Shown in pieces: positions 44,548 through 54,018 of a DNA stretch of 64,000 bases (positions within the stretch are counted from its first letter, which is position 1; each line of letters starts with the position of its first letter). The notes beneath the pieces were generated by a model. It was not told the DNA's origin. It did not search any database and saw nothing but the letters and a program-made list of their open reading frames with translations. Origin of the DNA: Methanococcoides sp. LMO-2 (GTDB taxonomy: Archaea > Halobacteriota > Methanosarcinia > Methanosarcinales > Methanosarcinaceae); the NCBI RefSeq assembly GCF_038432375.1, contig NZ_JBCAUS010000003.1, forward strand, positions 248,001 through 312,000, given 5' to 3'. A program made the translations under genes and the position numbers.

Positions 44548-44721
44548 ATGCAGCAGAAATCCTCTGATCGGCCAAATATGGCCGACAGACTTTTTTTTAT
44601 TTTAACTCAGCCCGAGAACCTTGCTCGCATACTGAGATGGGCATGGATAGTTTCACTTGGTATGCTGGTCCTGGGCTATCTTTTAATTTACTTTAATATT
44701 AAGGACTATCTGAACCTGTAA
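44548..44721 (+). CDS. ahaG: ATP synthase operon small membrane protein AhaG
   Basis: A 57-codon gene nine bases after ahaD. The product starts QQKSSDRPNMADRLFFILTQ and continues PENLARILRWAWIVSLGMLV, ending with NIKDYLNL. One or two membrane stretches (about residues 30-52) are seen. In Methanosarcina mazei the operon ends with a small hydrophobic ahaG in this place, which is the basis for the name. AAGG stands seven bases before the ATG. Its role in the enzyme is unknown. Sequence identity was not compared. Confidence 0.75.
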   Translation: MQQKSSDRPNMADRLFFILTQPENLARILRWAWIVSLGMLVLGYLLIYFNIKDYLNL

Positions 44722-44728
44722 GTTATAA

Positions 44729-44914: not shown

Positions 44915-46996
44915 ATGAGTGAATCACCGTGGGGAATTGGAAAAGAAAAAGGAAAAACACCTCCTTTTGGAACAGGAGCTACAGCTGGAGCTGTGTTTCC
45001 GGAAAATGCAACCGTTACTCCCATAGGTGACCAGAGTAACCAGAACATCGCAACTGTTGCAGATGAAACCATAAGCATTAATCCAGTAGGTCAACAAGAT
45101 CCAAAACCGGAAATTCCCATCATAGACGGAATTGAAAATCATAACCCATTTCAGAACAATTCGAAACCAGCTATTTCTTATGATAATGAAAGGGGAATTG
45201 ATGAACCTGGAAAACCTATCGCTTTGCAGGAAAGCGAAACTGACCAGACTAAGGATAACACAGGATTGAGAAAAAGACCATTGCCTTTGTTCGAACCTGA
45301 ACTACCCGTCGAAAATGAAGACGTTAAATCATCCTTTTTACAATATGGAGATAATTTTACCCCCAATGATGGAACTAATGGGCCAGTTCAAATGTCAGGA
45401 AGGAATCCTTTCGAAGCCATGTCGGACATGCCAATTAATTCCCCATTAACACAAACTGAAGCTATTGATCAAAAGACCGTTAGTCCGGAAAAGGTTCAGA
45501 ACTCAGGAATACCACTATTCCCTCCGGCAACGCCTGACATGGGATCAATGAGTGAAAACGAAATCCCACAAGCTGCTGAAAATGAAGCAGAAGAAGCCAT
45601 CCGGAACGAGAACGGACTTCTAACAATAATCAAAAAAACATTCAAACGTTTCACTCACAAAAAAAAGCTGATCGATCGCATGGAAGAGTGGCAACCTCCT
45701 GAACCAGAAGAAAAAGAAGAGGAAACTACCCCTAATGTGGTTGAACGGAATATGAAAACTACTCCCGACAATAACCTGCCTGCAAACTATGATAACGCAG
45801 AAACGGTCTCATTAGAGGATATTAGAAAAGTAATCCCTATTGAACCTCAAAATGTTGAGAGTGAATCTGAACAAAGGATCCCGGAGGTCCAGACTGATCA
45901 GCCCCCTTCAGAAATCACAACCGACTCCGGAGTAACTGAGAAAACCGCATCCCCAGAGACATCTGTTACAGACTCCCTGCCTGGCTACTCCCAGGAAGAG
46001 ATCCGAACAATAAAAGAAGAACTGGCAGATTCAAAACAAGGCAATGAAGAACTTGGAAAGGATATCAAAGAACTTACAGGTACCATTAATGAAATGGAAA
46101 GCTCAATCGACTCCATGAAAAGGGATGGGGACAGCTTCAGCTCGATTATAAATATGAGAGTCGATGAATCCACAAAAAGGATCGAATGCCTTGAAGAGCG
46201 TCTCAATGAGTTCGAAGTTACACTTGAAAGTATCCACACCGACAATGTTGACCTTAAAACCGATCTCAATACCATTGAGCAGAACATTGCAGAACTTACA
46301 GGCTCTTACAGTATCATGCTCAAACAGATGCAGAAACTGACAGAATTCGGTAATTCAAGGTCTGCAGAGATATTTGAGACAAATAAACGTATCGACAGAC
46401 TGGACCAGACTCTTTCCACACTGAACGCTGTTCAGGAAGAATCACAAAAAAGCATGCTTGAACTCCGCTCTGTCACATCTGACCTGATAAGAAGCGTGGA
46501 AAACACACACAATGCAAACAAAGATTTCAGGGCTGACAGAGAAAATCAGGACCAACTTATCAAGGACGAACTTGTCTCACTGACTGATTTTGTTGAGAAG
46601 GAATTCAAGAACCTTGGAGCAAGAAGCTACCGTGCAAATGGCGAAAATATCCAGCTGAACAATATTATAAAGAATTCCACCAATATGAAACTCTGCATGG
46701 AATGGCTTGAATTCCTCATGGAACTTGTCGGAAGGAACCACCTCGCAGACATCCTTTCCTACTATGAGGAACTTGGCTGGATCAGCGAGGATGTCCGGCT
46801 TGAACTTATGCGATATGCAGAAGGCATCGATTATTACATCGAAAAGACCGACTGGAAGCTTGCACCCGATGACCATGTGAAATCTATCTGGTTCATCGAA
46901 CAACTTGCCGGACTCAAAGTAGATAAGAACCGGCTATCAATAGTTGAGAAGAACATCAAAAAAGTTAAGAATGGTACAGAGATATATGGTATATAA
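44915..46996 (+). CDS. ArlD/FlaD-like coiled-coil protein with long disordered N-terminus
   Basis: A 693-residue protein in three parts. Residues 1 to ~350 are low in complexity and rich in P, E, N and T, without membrane segment or signal. Residues ~365-585 are a coiled coil (IKEELADSKQGNEELGKDIK, IECLEERLNEFEVTLESIHT). The last ~100 residues resemble the archaeal flagella D/E domain: MKLCMEWLEFLMELVGRNHL, YYEELGWISEDVRLELMRYA and WFIEQLAGLKVDKNRLSIV. In archaella that domain belongs to the cytoplasmic ring linking motor to chemotaxis. No archaellin, ArlI or ArlJ is nearby; instead seven pilin-like genes follow. I infer a cytoplasmic scaffold for a related surface machine. Confidence 0.78.
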   Translation: MSESPWGIGKEKGKTPPFGTGATAGAVFPENATVTPIGDQSNQNIATVADETISINPVGQQDPKPEIPIIDGIENHNPFQNNSKPAISYDNERGIDEPGKPIALQESETDQTKDNTGLRKRPLPLFEPELPVENEDVKSSFLQYGDNFTPNDGTNGPVQMSGRNPFEAMSDMPINSPLTQTEAIDQKTVSPEKVQNSGIPLFPPATPDMGSMSENEIPQAAENEAEEAIRNENGLLTIIKKTFKRFTHKKKLIDRMEEWQPPEPEEKEEETTPNVVERNMKTTPDNNLPANYDNAETVSLEDIRKVIPIEPQNVESESEQRIPEVQTDQPPSEITTDSGVTEKTASPETSVTDSLPGYSQEEIRTIKEELADSKQGNEELGKDIKELTGTINEMESSIDSMKRDGDSFSSIINMRVDESTKRIECLEERLNEFEVTLESIHTDNVDLKTDLNTIEQNIAELTGSYSIMLKQMQKLTEFGNSRSAEIFETNKRIDRLDQTLSTLNAVQEESQKSMLELRSVTSDLIRSVENTHNANKDFRADRENQDQLIKDELVSLTDFVEKEFKNLGARSYRANGENIQLNNIIKNSTNMKLCMEWLEFLMELVGRNHLADILSYYEELGWISEDVRLELMRYAEGIDYYIEKTDWKLAPDDHVKSIWFIEQLAGLKVDKNRLSIVEKNIKKVKNGTEIYGI

Positions 46997-47032
46997 TGCT
47001 CCATGCCTCCGTAGAGATCTCATAAAGGAACG

Positions 47033-47548
47033 ATGAAGAATATGACAAGACCTAATTTGTTAAAAAGAAAACTTCGAGGAAATGACGAAGGCCAGGTAAC
47101 AATCGATTACCTTATGGGAATTACCATATTCATTGTTGCATTATTCTTCATATTCCAGTATTCAGCAGGTTTATTTACTCCATTCCAGTCCAATTCTGAC
47201 GAGGTTACACTTGTTGCTGACCGTGTTGCTACTTCGATCACTGAGAAGGAGATCAGTGCGGGGGATATAAGGACACCGAATTTGATTGATGGAAACAAGA
47301 CTAATGATTACTTTGACAATAAGCTATCATCTGGTTATTATACAGAAATTGAAGATCTTGGATTGAGAGGAGAATACCATCGATATGACCTTAATGTAAC
47401 ACTGGAGAACAGTACACAGATGCTCAAGATGGCGGGCGAACCACTTCCACTTTCCAACAATATTGGCCAAACAAAGCGTGTTGTACTCATTGAAGATACT
47501 GTCACCGGCGAAACTGAAACAGCAATACTATCAGTAAGGGTGTGGTGA
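47033..47548 (+). CDS. Pilin-like protein, type 1 (GQVTIDYLMG N-terminus)
   Basis: A 171-residue protein. After a basic leader (RPNLLKRKLRGNDEG) comes QVTIDYLMGITIFIVALFFI, a hydrophobic helix at about residues 22-45 of the kind cleaved by archaeal prepilin peptidase, then an outside domain. From memory it resembles the haloarchaeal DUF7287 family. Two ATGs (47033, 47042) fit; AAGGAAC lies before both. First of the pilin-like series. Confidence 0.7.
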   Translation: MKNMTRPNLLKRKLRGNDEGQVTIDYLMGITIFIVALFFIFQYSAGLFTPFQSNSDEVTLVADRVATSITEKEISAGDIRTPNLIDGNKTNDYFDNKLSSGYYTEIEDLGLRGEYHRYDLNVTLENSTQMLKMAGEPLPLSNNIGQTKRVVLIEDTVTGETETAILSVRVW

Positions 47549-47549
47549 G

Positions 47550-48185
47550 ATGAAAAATCTAAACATAATTAGAATTACACGCGAAGAGGATGCACAGATG
47601 CACACTCTTGAAGCCATAATGGCTGCAACCATAATGGTAGTCATAATTCTATTCGCAGTTCAGGCAACTTCTCTTACTCCCCTTACCTCATCAACAGCAA
47701 ATGCCCACATCGAATCCCAGATGTACATCATAGGTCAAGATATGTTGACTGCACTTGACCATTCTTCAAATGGGCAAAACTCTGATCTGAAAAATGAAAC
47801 CATTAACTGGAATGGAGAGATGTATGTCTGGAACGGGACAGATTATCAATCCGATGATAATAAAAATAATTCACTCGAGGGACCTGTAGTTGACCTCATA
47901 AAACCTATTCTGGTTGATAATGGAATTGCTCACAACATCGAGTTCACATATAGCAGTATTTCAGAATCAGAGAACTACACAAGATACAGCGAAAAACTTG
48001 AAAATTACTACATATATAATGGAGATCCATCTGACAACGCGGTAATTGTTTCAAGAAAAGTATTGCTTTCTGAATCAGATGTTGGAAGTTCTTATGAAGC
48101 TGTTACCGGAATACCAGATGTTGATGGCAATGCAACTGCATTATATAACATTATAGATGTGAAACTCACATTATGGCGCATGTAA
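47550..48185 (+). CDS. Pilin-like protein, type 2 (AQMHTLEAIMAA N-terminus)
   Basis: A 211-residue protein with the short leader ITREED followed by AQMHTLEAIMAATIMVVIIL at about residues 13-33 and then FAVQATSLTPLTSSTANAHI. The LTPLTSS and HIESQ stretch resembles, from memory, haloarchaeal DUF7288. The rest is an outside domain with several N-x-S/T sequons. It begins one base after the preceding stop with GGTGAG in front. Confidence 0.7.
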   Translation: MKNLNIIRITREEDAQMHTLEAIMAATIMVVIILFAVQATSLTPLTSSTANAHIESQMYIIGQDMLTALDHSSNGQNSDLKNETINWNGEMYVWNGTDYQSDDNKNNSLEGPVVDLIKPILVDNGIAHNIEFTYSSISESENYTRYSEKLENYYIYNGDPSDNAVIVSRKVLLSESDVGSSYEAVTGIPDVDGNATALYNIIDVKLTLWRM

Positions 48186-48205
48186 AATAAATAAGAGATG
48201 TTATT

Positions 48206-49027
48206 ATGAGAAAGTTTGATGATTCCGCACAATTGTTATTACTTGCTGCATTTGCCATAGGATTCACTTTAGTCATAACGACCATAATGTTGAACAATGT
48301 CATCTATGCAAGTAATATGGCATCGGAATCTACCAGTGATATTAGCAATTATGAGATCTCAAACATTGCTAAAATGACAGATGAGGCGACAAGTGCTGCT
48401 TACAACGATAGCAAATATGAAACTGACAGAGATGCAAAAATTGCAGCATATATGGACAGCTATGCAAATGAAATATCAACCATATACGCATTCAGGGGTC
48501 TTTCACTATCCTTCGATGACAGTAACCTTACTGATGCATATTTTACGGAGAACGGACTTTATTCTGGAAACTCAGATTGGGACGTCGTTAAGAATGTAAA
48601 TCGTACGGACATATTCACGATCGAGTTAATAAATACATCAAAGCTTGTGGATGAGTCAAATGCATATGAAGTATATCTCGTAAACCAATCCAACGGAACA
48701 GTTTGGTCCATGAAAGTCTACAACGATAGTACGCATATAAACATAAGTGTAAATAATCATATTGTTGATTCAAGAACACCAACCACATACATGATGCTGA
48801 ATATCACAGGCGTATCATCTTTTAATTTTAATAAATCTACAACAAACGACCCCTATATGATAAAATTTGTAAACTCAAGTAATGCCATGGGATATTACTC
48901 AATCTCCGGAGGACTTGCAGATGGAAGTTCTTTTGTTGAAGAAAGATACAAAGTAACAAATGCGACAATAAGTGTTGCATCCAGCAATAACAAGATCAAC
49001 TTGACAATACCTTTTACAATACCATGA
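48206..49027 (+). CDS. Pilin-like protein, type 3 (SAQLLLLAAFAIG N-terminus)
   Basis: A 273-residue protein: RKFDDSAQLLLLAAFAIGFT and a helix to about residue 30, then VIYASNMASESTSDISNYEI and a long outside part rich in Asn, Ser and Thr with many sequons (NQSNGTV, NDSTHINISV). The start resembles haloarchaeal DUF7261 from memory. The whole gene is visibly A/T-rich compared with the aha operon. GAGATG precedes the ATG. Confidence 0.7.
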   Translation: MRKFDDSAQLLLLAAFAIGFTLVITTIMLNNVIYASNMASESTSDISNYEISNIAKMTDEATSAAYNDSKYETDRDAKIAAYMDSYANEISTIYAFRGLSLSFDDSNLTDAYFTENGLYSGNSDWDVVKNVNRTDIFTIELINTSKLVDESNAYEVYLVNQSNGTVWSMKVYNDSTHINISVNNHIVDSRTPTTYMMLNITGVSSFNFNKSTTNDPYMIKFVNSSNAMGYYSISGGLADGSSFVEERYKVTNATISVASSNNKINLTIPFTIP

Positions 49028-49036
49028 GGATCTAAC

Positions 49037-49504
49037 ATGAAGCAAATATTCCATGATAATGAAGCTGTCGCTACCTCTGTTGGGTTCATACTTACTTTTT
49101 CAATAACAGTTATCACTTTTTTGCTTGTTATGAATGCGTCCTATGATATGATGGACCAGGCGGAGCATACAGTCATGAGAGAAGAGTTTGAGATCCATGG
49201 AAGTAACATCGCACTCCAGATTACAGAGATTGAAACATTGGTGAACACTAGCCAAAATATCGGGGGGGAAGTTGGTGAAATCAGATATGAGATGGTGTTG
49301 CCTTTGAAAGTCGCAAATGACTATTATTCTGTTGATTTTTCAACTGATGAAATGATATTTGAGTCTCATGGTCGTGACGAAACAAGGGTAAAAATACCTT
49401 ATGAAGCAAGAAATATTAACGTAACTCCCACTACCATAAGCAGTGCAAGTGAGGAACATTTCATGACCTATAACAGCACTTCGAATATGATAGAGATATA
49501 CTGA
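49037..49504 (+). CDS. Pilin-like protein, type 4 (NEAVATSVGFILTFSIT N-terminus)
   Basis: A 155-residue protein with a short leader FHD, then NEAVATSVGFILTFSITVIT and a helix to about residue 33, then a conserved-looking HTVMREEFEIHGSNIALQIT helix. It ends with an outside beta domain. It resembles haloarchaeal DUF7266 from memory. A gly-rich GGEVGEIRYEMVLPLKV follows near residue 75. Nine bases from the preceding stop. Confidence 0.7.
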   Translation: MKQIFHDNEAVATSVGFILTFSITVITFLLVMNASYDMMDQAEHTVMREEFEIHGSNIALQITEIETLVNTSQNIGGEVGEIRYEMVLPLKVANDYYSVDFSTDEMIFESHGRDETRVKIPYEARNINVTPTTISSASEEHFMTYNSTSNMIEIY

Positions 49505-49527
49505 TCAACTAAAAGGTTCTGATATAT

Positions 49528-50304
49528 ATGGGAAGAAAAAATATAATAAAATCGGAAAATGCAGTATCAGAAGTAGTTGATGTAGTGCTCATACTTGGCA
49601 TAATGCTTATTGCAATAACTGTTATAACCGTTGCAGGATTTCCTGCTCTACAGAACATGCAGGAAAGCGGACACAAAGAGAATATTAGACAAAGTTTCAT
49701 AGTTCTTGGGGAAAACGTAAATAAGGTTGTCTTTGACCATGCTCCATCCCAGTCCATAGAATTGAAAATGTATGGAGGAGGAATATGGGTCACTGGAAAT
49801 TCTTCAATTTATGTTGAATTGGAAACATGGAATGCTACGAACTCCAAAACTGAAATTCAACCAATAGATATACAACTTCGAGAATTGCAGAATCAATATG
49901 AAGATACAACAATCTCATATGAGAACACAGGAGTTTGGGCAAAGTACGAAACTGGTGAAGCTGTGATGGTTCGGGAACCTCAATTTATCAATTCAGATGA
50001 ACTCCTTGTAATACCTTTTACTCTGGTTACAGGTGTTGATGGTATTGCAGGAGAAGGTCTAGTAAGAGTAATTGCAGAAAAGGATTCAGTTCCCCAGGTC
50101 TATAAATACCAAAATGTATCAGCAGTTAATATAACAATACAAAGTCCATATTATACCGCTTGGGAAGACTATCTGAACGAAACTCTGGAAATGCAAATCG
50201 TGGACATGGATCATATGAATTCCACAGTTAATGCATCCAGAAGTTATGCAAAGAATATCGACGTATACATACTTCAATCATCAATTGAGATGACAATTGA
50301 ATAA
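49528..50304 (+). CDS. Pilin-like protein, type 5 (ENAVSEVVDVVLILG N-terminus)
   Basis: A 258-residue protein: leader GRKNIIKS, then ENAVSEVVDVVLILGIMLIA and a helix to about residue 35, a PALQNMQESGHKENIRQSFI helix, then an outside domain with KMYGGGIWVTGNSSIYVELE and ISYENTGVWAKYETGEAVMV. The last two motifs are shared in weaker form with the following two genes, so it is a distant paralogue. DUF7289-like from memory. AAGGT stands before the ATG. Confidence 0.7.
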   Translation: MGRKNIIKSENAVSEVVDVVLILGIMLIAITVITVAGFPALQNMQESGHKENIRQSFIVLGENVNKVVFDHAPSQSIELKMYGGGIWVTGNSSIYVELETWNATNSKTEIQPIDIQLRELQNQYEDTTISYENTGVWAKYETGEAVMVREPQFINSDELLVIPFTLVTGVDGIAGEGLVRVIAEKDSVPQVYKYQNVSAVNITIQSPYYTAWEDYLNETLEMQIVDMDHMNSTVNASRSYAKNIDVYILQSSIEMTIE

Positions 50305-50318
50305 GGCGGAGATAACAG

Positions 50319-51743
50319 ATGGGATGCGGAAAAAACATAATCAGTGAATGTAATGCCGTTTCATCTGTTGTAGGGTCATTGTTAATTTTTTCAATCACAG
50401 TCCTTTGCATTACTGTAATGGTTCTCTACAGTGTCCCGATGATCGCTGAAATGCAGGATGATGCCGAGGCACAGAAAGTAGAACAGGCATTCACAATTCT
50501 GGATTCACGTATAAGTAAAGTAGCGCTTGGAGAATCTCCTCTACAAACGACGTCCATCACAATGGAAGGAGGGACTTTAAACGTAAACGCTCCGGTTGAA
50601 TCTGAAAAAGGAAGAATGACTATTCAGATCATCAACCAAACGGATAATACAAAGGAAGAGTTCAATTGTTCACTCGGAACTATAGAGTATGCCACAGATG
50701 ATCGAAAAATAGCATACGAAGGAGGAGGTGTGTGGTCCAACTATGGTTCAAGAGGAGGAACAGTTATGGTATCACCACCGGAGTTCCATTACAACGGAGT
50801 TACTCTTACTTTACCAATAATGACCATTAATGGAAAATCCTCATCCAGTGGAGATGGTGATTTCGATATTGCGGTAACTTCCGACAACAAGCCTCAAATA
50901 TTGTATCCGAATGTATCAGCGTCAGTCCAGAGAAAGAATCCGGTTGTGCATGACAAGGTCATTGTATACATTAAAAGTGAATACTACACCGCCTGGGCCG
51001 ATTATGCTAACACGTTAATATACACAACTGCAACAGTTGATGATGCTAACGAAACAGCCATCATTGAATTCTATACTACTCCACCGATGGGAACCTTTAG
51101 CCTTACTAATAATATAAAAATGGGCCAGGTCAATAAATCCAACTTCCAACCAATACAAGATTTTAACTTCCATTTTGAAGCCGCAAAATCCCAGGGATTG
51201 AACCCAAAAAAATACGAAATAAAAGCGATTTCCGATTCCAAGACATTAACTTATGGTTTACAAAAAAAGAGCGGTGCTGATCAGCTTGAACTTTATGTAA
51301 CCTATATGGATACATCAGTAGGGCCAGACTATATCGAACATTGGGAGGGAATCGAAACATTCTCAATAGAGGGAGCACAAGCAGATGAGATATCTAATGT
51401 CGATCTGCTTAATGAATCATTCATTATGAAATATAGTCCACCAAACCTGGATGGTGCAGACACCGATTTCTCATGGGGACCTTCCAACACCACAAGTGAA
51501 TTACCAAACGTTGTGATCAATACAACATCAGGATATGATGAGTATTCACTGGAAAATATAACTCAACATTACATTAAGTTGATGACAAATGAGGATCCAA
51601 TTCAATTCAATCTGGATGGAGGATCACAGGATCCAATGGATTATGGAAGTTCAAAGATAACTCTCAATTATGATTCTATTGGAAACCTTATTACATATCT
51701 GCATGTAACTCAAAACGAGCTGGATGTGGAAATTGTAAATTGA
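50319..51743 (+). CDS. Pilin-like protein, type 5, tandem copy A
   Basis: A 474-residue secreted or membrane protein. The leader GCGKNIISEC leads to NAVSSVVGSLLIFSITVLCI and a helix to about residue 38. Then come QKVEQAFTILDSRISKVALG near residue 55, IAYEGGGVWSNYGSRGGTVM then VSPPEFHYNGVTLTLPIMTI near 140, and a C-terminal ~250-residue domain ending HYIKLMTNEDPIQFNLDGGS and LIT YLHVTQNELDVEI-like text. The VSSVVG start matches archaeal type IV pilins of DUF1628/DUF7289 kind. GGAG stands before the ATG. Very similar to the next gene. Confidence 0.72.
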   Translation: MGCGKNIISECNAVSSVVGSLLIFSITVLCITVMVLYSVPMIAEMQDDAEAQKVEQAFTILDSRISKVALGESPLQTTSITMEGGTLNVNAPVESEKGRMTIQIINQTDNTKEEFNCSLGTIEYATDDRKIAYEGGGVWSNYGSRGGTVMVSPPEFHYNGVTLTLPIMTINGKSSSSGDGDFDIAVTSDNKPQILYPNVSASVQRKNPVVHDKVIVYIKSEYYTAWADYANTLIYTTATVDDANETAIIEFYTTPPMGTFSLTNNIKMGQVNKSNFQPIQDFNFHFEAAKSQGLNPKKYEIKAISDSKTLTYGLQKKSGADQLELYVTYMDTSVGPDYIEHWEGIETFSIEGAQADEISNVDLLNESFIMKYSPPNLDGADTDFSWGPSNTTSELPNVVINTTSGYDEYSLENITQHYIKLMTNEDPIQFNLDGGSQDPMDYGSSKITLNYDSIGNLITYLHVTQNELDVEIVN

Positions 51744-51878
51744 TTTTCACAATATCAATACACAATCCATAATATTGAAAATTCAATTGACATGCGCAAA
51801 AAGATAAGTATGCCAAACACAATAAATAATATAGTAACACGTTTTATCATAATGAATATATAATTCGGATTGGTGGAT

Positions 51879-53267
51879 ATGGGGACGAAAAGAAAATCAA
51901 TTGAATCATGTAAAGCGGTTTCATCAGTTGTTGGATTATTGCTGATGTACTCTCTTGCAATAATTGCTATTGGAATCATATTAGTTTACAATGTCCCTGT
52001 GCTCAATGATATGCAGGACAGCGCAAAAGCACAGAAAGTTGAACAGGCTTTTACCGTCATGGACTCCCGGATGAGCAAAGTCGCACTTGGAGAGTCCCCA
52101 AGACAAACAACTTCCGTATCCCTCATGGGTGGAAGCATTAGTGTAAATGGTCCTGGTGAAAATGAAAAAGGACTCATGACGATTCAAATAATCAACCATT
52201 CAACTAATATGAATGAAGAATTCAACTGTTCATTGGGTACTATAGAATACATCAAAGATGATCGAACGGTCGCTTACGAAGGTGGAGGAGTATGGTCAGA
52301 CTACGGATCAAAAGGCGGAACCGTTATGGTATCACCACCTGAATTCCATTATAATGGAGTGACACTCACATTGCCAATAATGACCATAAATGGTAACTCA
52401 TCCATTACTGGCGAGGGCAATACTGCGATTCTAGTCACATCTAATAATCAACCACACGTATTGTACCCGAATACTTCACTCTCTGCCAACAGAATAAATC
52501 CTACTGATCATTTTGACGAACTTATACTATATATCAAAAGCGATTATTATAAAGCATGGGCAAACTATGCAAATTCCATGACCTACACCAGTGCAACAAT
52601 GGATGATAAAAATAAAACAGCCATTGTTTCTTTCTCTACAAAACCCCCAATGGGAACATACCCCCTTTCAAGCAAACTAAAAGTGGCTCAAGTGTGTCAA
52701 ATCGATGAACCAGTTTATGACTTTGATTTTGACTTTCAAGCTGCGGCTTCAAGTGGACTAAATCCAAAAAACTATGGCATAACAGCAACTTCGGGAAGCC
52801 AGACACTTTCATACTATTTACAGAAAAGAGAAGGTGCTGAACAATTAGATCTTATTGTTACTTATGAAGACACAGATTTGAGCTCTGATATGGAAAGATG
52901 GGTAAGCATACAAAATTACCCAGTAAATTCAACCAGTCCAAAAAACGAGGATCAATACTCCATAGTTGATCTTGTAAATGATTCATTTATGATGGAATTT
53001 TCAAAAAAGAAAGGTGGTGTAGAGACTGACTTTTCATGGTCTAATGCCACCATAAATGATACAGACGTCTATTCAGTAAATGATCTTACACAACATTACT
53101 TTAAACTAATAACGGAAGACAAACCGGTTACATTTTATATGGATGGTGGCAACCAAGATCCTGTAGACTACAGCACATCTACAGTCACTATCAACTATTG
53201 TGTAGAAGGGAACTTTATTACCTATTTGCACATAACTCAAAATGAGCTGGATGTAACCGTAGAATAA
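51879..53267 (+). CDS. Pilin-like protein, type 5, tandem copy B
   Basis: A 462-residue near twin of the preceding gene. Same plan: KAVSSVVGLLLMYSLAIIAI, QKVEQAFTVMDSRMSKVALG, VAYEGGGVWSDYGSKGGTVM, SPPEFHYNGVTLTLPIMTIN, and the end FITYLHITQNELDVTVE. Copies agree over long runs in the first ~190 residues and differ more in the middle and C-terminal parts. The ATG at 51879 follows GGTGG; a TTG at 51870 is weaker. The gap of 135 bases before it is A/T-rich and could hold an extra promoter. Last gene of the cluster. Confidence 0.72.
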   Translation: MGTKRKSIESCKAVSSVVGLLLMYSLAIIAIGIILVYNVPVLNDMQDSAKAQKVEQAFTVMDSRMSKVALGESPRQTTSVSLMGGSISVNGPGENEKGLMTIQIINHSTNMNEEFNCSLGTIEYIKDDRTVAYEGGGVWSDYGSKGGTVMVSPPEFHYNGVTLTLPIMTINGNSSITGEGNTAILVTSNNQPHVLYPNTSLSANRINPTDHFDELILYIKSDYYKAWANYANSMTYTSATMDDKNKTAIVSFSTKPPMGTYPLSSKLKVAQVCQIDEPVYDFDFDFQAAASSGLNPKNYGITATSGSQTLSYYLQKREGAEQLDLIVTYEDTDLSSDMERWVSIQNYPVNSTSPKNEDQYSIVDLVNDSFMMEFSKKKGGVETDFSWSNATINDTDVYSVNDLTQHYFKLITEDKPVTFYMDGGNQDPVDYSTSTVTINYCVEGNFITYLHITQNELDVTVE

Positions 53268-53285: not shown

Positions 53286-53313
53286 GGGTCATAGAAAAAT
53301 AAATCTATGACCC
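53286..53313. terminator. Bidirectional hairpin terminator
   Basis: GGGTCATAGA (53286-53295) and TCTATGACCC (53304-53313) are a perfect 10-bp stem with an eight-base loop. A run of eight A precedes it (T-tract for the minus strand) and ATTTTTAAA follows. It sits between the convergent pilin cluster and the DUF4013 gene and can end both transcripts. Confidence 0.75.
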
Positions 53314-53335: not shown

Positions 53336-53911
53336 TCACTCAACGTCAGAGACTTCCGTATACTCAGCAGTATAGCTCTCTCCTGCACCAACCTGTGCCT
53401 CAAGAGCTGCTACCAGTGCAAGGAAGTAGAATGGTGTTGTCAGTAAAGAACCAACGTAGACCATGCCGCCTATTGCGCTGATCACCCATAGGATGATGGC
53501 CAGAACAAGGGTGTCAACAAAGTTGTTCTTGGATATCTCGATACTTTCTTTTATGGAATCCATTACGCCGTATCCCCTTATAATAAGGAGAGGGAGGGCA
53601 TAGATCATCAGTATTGAAAGTACAAGTCCGGGAAGCACCAGGAACATAAATCCTATTCCCACTATAATGGCAAATAGAATAAAGAACACCCAGCTCTTTA
53701 TGAAATTATTGAAACCTTCAAACAGGTCATTGATCTCAACCTTTTCGCCGCCCATTCCTTTCACAGCCATATAAGCAAGACCGTAGAAGAGCGGTGCAAT
53801 GGTCACAATAAATATTGAACCTATAAATGCTATTAATGTAGCTACGACATAAGCTGCGACGTTCTCTTTGAAAACATCCCATGCTCGCCTGAATATTTCT
53901 TCATAATCCAT
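53336..53911 (-). CDS. DUF4013-like membrane protein
   Basis: A 191-residue protein with about five membrane helices: an amphipathic start (YEEIFRRAWDVFKENVAAYV), then YVVATLIAFIGSIFIVTIAP, WVFFILFAIIVGIGFMFLVL, LPGLVLSILMIYALPLLIIR, and TLVLAIILWVISAIGGMVYV. The GVMDSIKESIEISKNN loop is typical of DUF4013 and related glycerophosphodiesterase-like membrane families. Function unknown. GAGGTGA before the ATG at 53911 decides the start. Confidence 0.75.
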   Translation of the reverse strand: MDYEEIFRRAWDVFKENVAAYVVATLIAFIGSIFIVTIAPLFYGLAYMAVKGMGGEKVEINDLFEGFNNFIKSWVFFILFAIIVGIGFMFLVLPGLVLSILMIYALPLLIIRGYGVMDSIKESIEISKNNFVDTLVLAIILWVISAIGGMVYVGSLLTTPFYFLALVAALEAQVGAGESYTAEYTEVSDVE

Positions 53912-54018
53912 AATGTCACCTCTAAAATAAAATAGGTTTATAGGCATAAATAATTTTGCACCGGACTATTTATAGAAAGGTTTGAAGATATACTAATTGG
54001 TAGATTAATTTTCTACAA

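Follow-up and report, generated by a model that had tools for sequence, protein, structure and literature searches.

At positions 44915-53267 of the analysed stretch of 64,000 nucleotides (the window), eight closely packed open reading frames lie in the same direction on the plus strand, as an initial annotation of this DNA had it, separated in order by gaps of 36, 1, 20, 9, 23, 14 and 126 bp. The reading frames were called mechanically and their products were assigned to families by Pfam profile search. Read 5' to 3', they encode an Arch_fla_DE protein, one member each of DUF7287, DUF7288, DUF7261 and DUF7266, and three DUF7289 pilin-like proteins. The cluster is A/T-rich, as had been noticed (G+C 38.8% versus 44.6% for the whole window). 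Upstream lie A-type ATPase genes, the last two being atpB and atpD. Downstream, on the opposite strand, are the gene of a YciC/UPF0259-like membrane protein (53336..53947, minus strand), a recurrent neighbour of the pilins or of the DE gene in most Methanosarcinaceae genera, and a further reading frame that we read, from its sequence, as a putative MscS-like channel. A perfect 10-bp inverted repeat at 53286..53313 separates the pilin operon from the convergent membrane-protein gene. The initial annotation took it for a perfect terminator closing the cluster; the repeat is indeed perfect, but a terminator scan scored the stem as a terminator for the minus strand only.

The last seven genes encode pilin-like proteins of several N-terminal classes. 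Their leaders are short and polar and end in G or A, followed by Q or V and a hydrophobic stretch (below, a slash stands between positions -1 and +1). The DUF7287 protein (47033..47548, E = 2.2e-35) reads DEG/QVTIDYLMG; in relatives, -1 is G or A in 48 of 49 N-termini, +1 is Q in 45 of 49, and the D at +5 is conserved as well. Next come the DUF7288 protein (47550..48185, 9.7e-42; DA/QMHTLEA) and a DUF7261-like pilin (48206..49027; SA/QLLLLAA) whose match of 25.7 bits (1.5e-5) falls slightly below the curated cut-off of 27, and whose relatives have Q at +1 in 49/49 cases. The DUF7266 protein (49037..49504, 3.1e-8) reads EA/VATSVG, and most relatives in this family and in DUF7289 have A/VS at this point. 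These counts cover four families; DUF7288, whose motif lay at the margin of the alignment, was judged by inspection. The three DUF7289 proteins comprise a short form (49528..50304, 5.2e-31) and two long forms (50319..51743, 7.1e-25; 51870..53267, 3.2e-27). The long forms, a first and a second copy, also carry a C-terminal DUF7308 (1.3e-15 and 3.7e-16), which is absent from the short form. The second copy could start at TTG 51870 or ATG 51879. The initial annotation named all five families correctly, with DUF7261 slightly under its cut-off.

Several of these proteins are predicted from sequence to combine a class III prepilin signal with a hydrophobic helix, the combination looked for in a PilB4-type pilus. 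A strict FlaFind-like pattern recognises only two of the seven and is too restrictive to be used as a test. AlphaFold2 predicts for the short DUF7289 protein (pLDDT 81) a 60-residue N-terminal helix, at residues 9-68, and then a beta-rich domain; this model had no convincing match in the PDB, which speaks neither for nor against a pilin fold beyond the N-terminal helix. NCBIfam gave no informative names for the pilin-like proteins and a literature search by the DUF names found no paper. Five families without names gain a probable structural role here.

The pilin set is widespread. DUF7288 is present in 106 of 147 sampled genomes of the phylum Halobacteriota, and the order 7287-7288-7261-7266-7289, usually with a second, longer DUF7289, recurs in loci from many genera, Haloferax included. 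The suggestion that these families cluster and are common to haloarchaea and methanogens therefore holds. The same neighbourhood comparison revealed linked machinery: the pilins adjoin TadA and TadC in several haloarchaeal-type and methanomicrobial-type loci (L072, L073, L076, L077, L083-L085). Inside the 64-kb window, a profile search of the own genome found no T2SSE or T2SSF match, in agreement with the earlier statement that it lacks an ATPase and a platform protein. Two TadA/TadC pairs are encoded on contig C2, with no pilins beside either, and a prepilin peptidase (Peptidase_A24, 3.5e-16) lies at C2:849848. We propose that this peptidase, whose gene is at a distant locus, would cleave the seven prepilins, and that one of the two TadA/TadC pairs would assemble them in trans. 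In a TadA tree, from which three sequences dropped out, TadA1 falls into a clade (89/89) with methanomicrobial-type ATPases, some of them encoded beside pilins; it is for this reason the better candidate partner ATPase, although this level of support does not settle the matter.

The initial annotation saw in these genes part of an undescribed machine. The pilins instead match a known kind, the clade-2 euryarchaeal type IV pilus exemplified by the PilB4 locus in Figure 4B of Makarova, Koonin and Albers 2016 (PMC4858521). As in that system, there is a dedicated set of several pilins. The signature minor pilin described there (arCOG02911), a family of about 250-550 residues that is prone to duplication, fits DUF7289, the two being likened by description. 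The same authors argue that an ATPase/TadC pair need not be encoded beside the pilins it serves, as would have to hold for the window pilins, and the Haloferax-type ATPase with its extra N-terminal domain resembles the long ATPases of the pilin-linked loci. Unlike the PilB4 type, the window pilins are unlinked to an ATPase and TadC and are preceded by a DE gene.

We call the product of this first gene DE-long (44915..46996, 693 aa). Its C-terminal archaellum D/E-type domain, as initially annotated, matches PF04659 at residues 577-666 (1.6e-27; 95.7 bits against a cut-off of 21). In front of it are a coiled coil at about 360-560 and a long, variable N-terminus that bears a short [LF]PW[DE]-like motif. 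Within the coiled-coil stretch, a match to PF05377 (the FlaC region) reaches 21.5 bits against a cut-off of 27.8. A search of the PDB with the DE-long profile matched only coiled-coil chains, and among the 60 listed none extends over the DE domain. The predicted all-helical DE domain (pLDDT 80) had no convincing PDB match either, with none by Foldseek at E <=0.001 and a best VIA Z of 3.1. The own genome has a single arl operon, located on contig C7, whose sole DE gene encodes a shorter protein of 439 aa (DE-short) that lacks the N-terminal motif. The window belongs to contig C3; the DE-long gene thus lies apart from the arl operon. When 80 DE domains were placed in a tree, DE-long formed a clade distinct from DE-short (support 99/99), and both paralogs are found throughout the archaellated Methanosarcinaceae. 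The domain being short, the deeper branching is unsure; as far as it resolves, this duplication is separate from the haloarchaeal one.

A FlaD/E gene outside the archaellum cluster has precedents. For Methanococcoides burtonii, probably of the same genus, Desmond et al. 2007 (PMC1914349) describe a second flaD located apart from the fla genes, with the other FlaD/E copy fused to FlaC, and state that FlaD outside the cluster is also known in haloarchaea. The place of DE-long outside arl is therefore not disqualifying. Their passages on the M. burtonii gene mention neither a pilin operon context nor a loss pattern, and the open-access literature searched yielded no earlier account of DE-long among pilin genes or of its joint loss with the archaellum, described below.

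We compared the occurrence of DE proteins, ArlJ and DUF7288 across 81 Methanosarcinaceae genomes. ArlJ of this archaellum type is present in 46 of them, and 43 of these 46 have DE-long (both counts tallied by hand; that a gene is missing from a draft genome says little). Four pilin-bearing genomes, G174, G011, G167 and G170, have neither a full ArlJ nor DE-long. In G174, from the same genus as the window, the only pieces left correspond to residues 1-45 and 602-648 of DE-long from a relative; two short pieces remain in G170, one in G011 and none in G167. Local tblastn placed the scraps at the pilin locus in the three genomes that have them, and the surviving pieces differ. ArlJ has likewise decayed to C-terminal scraps in G011 and G174 and to an 84-residue scrap in G167, while G170 has no ArlJ match above TadC level. 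In all four, the pilin reading frames are full length. An AtpB/AtpD tree places G174 among archaellated Methanococcoides, G170 as sister to the archaellated G164, and G011 with G167 in another Methanohalophilus group that has archaellated members, which implies at least three independent losses of the archaellum. The converse is seen in G171 and G159: both are archaellated, their DE-long is intact (648 and 706 aa), and the space from DE-long to the membrane-protein gene holds no pilin genes.

The correspondence is not complete. G139 has an intact DE-long (478 aa) and ArlJ only as a scrap; it is very close to the archaellated G065 (AtpD dS 0.023), so its archaellum loss may be too recent to be informative. 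G199, a fragmented assembly that is 95% complete, has DE-long and DE-short without ArlJ of this type, probably through an assembly gap. DE-long is missing from three archaellated genomes: G187 (99% complete), and G195 and G150 (both about 94%). Among the pilin-bearing genomes, Fisher's exact test, which ignores phylogeny, gave p = 0.0019, or 0.0007 without G199. DE-long is thus present with the archaellum and lost with it, as would be looked for in an ArlD/E protein, with G139 as the one exception. Since its retention and loss follow the archaellum rather than the pilins, DE-long is probably no part of the pilus, to which the initial annotation had assigned it, and one operon seems to carry parts of two different surface machines. 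Judged by its operon neighbours only, the ArlD-like protein would have been placed with what is probably the wrong machine.

The archaellum motor is surrounded by a cytosolic ring of ArlC/D/E; the Haloferax proteins ArlCE and ArlD interact with one another as well as with ArlH and CheF (PMC8978795, PMC9126983). DE-long shares with the ring proteins the PF04659 domain, the coiled coil, the number of two DE proteins per archaellated genome and the co-occurrence with the archaellum; it differs in its very long and variable N-terminus and, from the usual ring genes, in its location in a pilin operon. With a single DE protein encoded in the arl operon of the Methanosarcinaceae, DE-long is the obvious candidate for a second ring protein. 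We therefore consider it likely that the cluster is the pilin operon of an ordinary PilB4-type pilus headed by an archaellum gene, whose product is a second ArlD/E-type ring subunit and, as such, a candidate for this role in the Methanosarcinaceae archaellum. By analogy to Haloferax ArlCE/ArlD, DE-long and DE-short together would form the cytosolic ring around ArlI/ArlH. Two tempting inferences are thereby corrected, as the pilins are of a known kind of pilus and the ArlD-like protein would belong to another machine.

Other roles for DE-long were weighed against this one. If it served the pilus machine as a cytosolic component, encoded together with its pilins, this would explain why the two are adjacent on the same strand in five genera, with a gap of 36 bp in the window. 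This role is very hard to reconcile with pilin operons that stayed intact after the decay of DE-long in G174, G170, G011 and G167, with a DE-long that stayed intact after deletion of the pilins in G171 and G159, and with the haloarchaeal-type, methanomicrobial-type, Methanolobus and Methanomethylovorans loci examined, none of which has a DE gene beside the pilins; we regard it as most improbable. We give equally little credence to the idea that what DE-long tracks is not the motor itself but a chemotaxis system that disappeared along with the archaellum. The ArlCDE ring does join CheF/CheY to the motor in Haloferax (PMC8978795, PMC9126983), but CheF, the sole che gene surveyed, occurs in only 15 of the 81 family genomes though DE-long is common, and this known partner of the ring was not detected in the own genome, where the chemotaxis link may consequently differ from that known in Haloferax. 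The failure to detect CheF also counts against the ring role that we favour for DE-long.

Somewhat less remote, if still unlikely, is a dual use, in which DE-long would belong to the archaellum ring and in addition dock or position the motor of the type IV pilus. Adjacency has been kept in five genera despite DE-long following the archaellum, and the long variable N-terminus, whose motif is absent from DE-short, points the same way. Pilin operons nevertheless persist without DE-long, and Methanolobus and Methanomethylovorans gave up the adjacency with neither part lost. If dual use were true, one operon would couple swimming and adhesion, physically or transcriptionally, in methylotrophic methanogens.

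On the preferred reading of DE-long as a second archaellum ring subunit, its position has still to be accounted for. DE-long and the pilins are same-strand neighbours in Methanococcoides, Methanosalsum, part of Methanohalophilus and the genera g4 and g73, which suggests more than accident. The simplest idea is joint expression: the adjacency would serve the co-expression of parts for adhesion and motility. Inertia may also be why DE-long stays beside the pilins in these five genera. A conserved operon mixing parts of two related surface machines offers an entry to the balance between swimming and attachment. The arrangement varies within the family: DE-long adjoins a divergent pilin set in two Methanohalophilus genomes and is broken in Methanohalophilus profundi (locus L237). 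In favour of the archaellum role, DE-long is present away from the pilins in Methanolobus and Methanomethylovorans, and Methanosalsum has an extra DE-long beside a DE-short and archaellin-like proteins.

The long ArlD/E-type protein at the head of the pilin operon (DE-long) and its paralogue from the archaellum operon (DE-short) have E[IL]YGI at the C-terminus in common. Close to the N-terminus, the majority of DE-long proteins carry a short [LF]PW[DE]-like motif (e.g. L121 7878), which was absent from the DE-short proteins checked; the corresponding residues in the DE-long of the window are SPWG. Among relatives, the DE-long of Methanohalophilus profundi (L237 9000-10411) appears to be frameshifted and truncated, and a Methanosalsum locus (L048 5528-19580) encodes an extra DE-long together with a DE-short and several archaellin-like proteins; arlHIJ was not found in the stretch of this locus that was read.

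Between atpD and DE-long lies a short ORF (44549-44722, + strand) whose product, about 57 residues long, is probably a membrane protein; of the related loci searched with tblastn, 14 have a match to it. The YciC/UPF0259-like membrane protein (53336-53947, - strand) is a candidate accessory protein. Its gene repeatedly adjoins the pilins or DE-long in most Methanosarcinaceae genera, and is duplicated (two copies) at some loci.

A divergent second pilin set, with a DUF7287 protein of about 320 aa and a DUF7288 protein of about 174 aa, is present in many genomes of the family (loci L051, L052, L058, L123 and L127); some genomes retain it as their sole pilin set. In G159, which has an archaellum and an intact DE-long, an ORF of 607 residues, running on the opposite strand (L122 10459-12282, -), occupies the site of the absent pilin genes.
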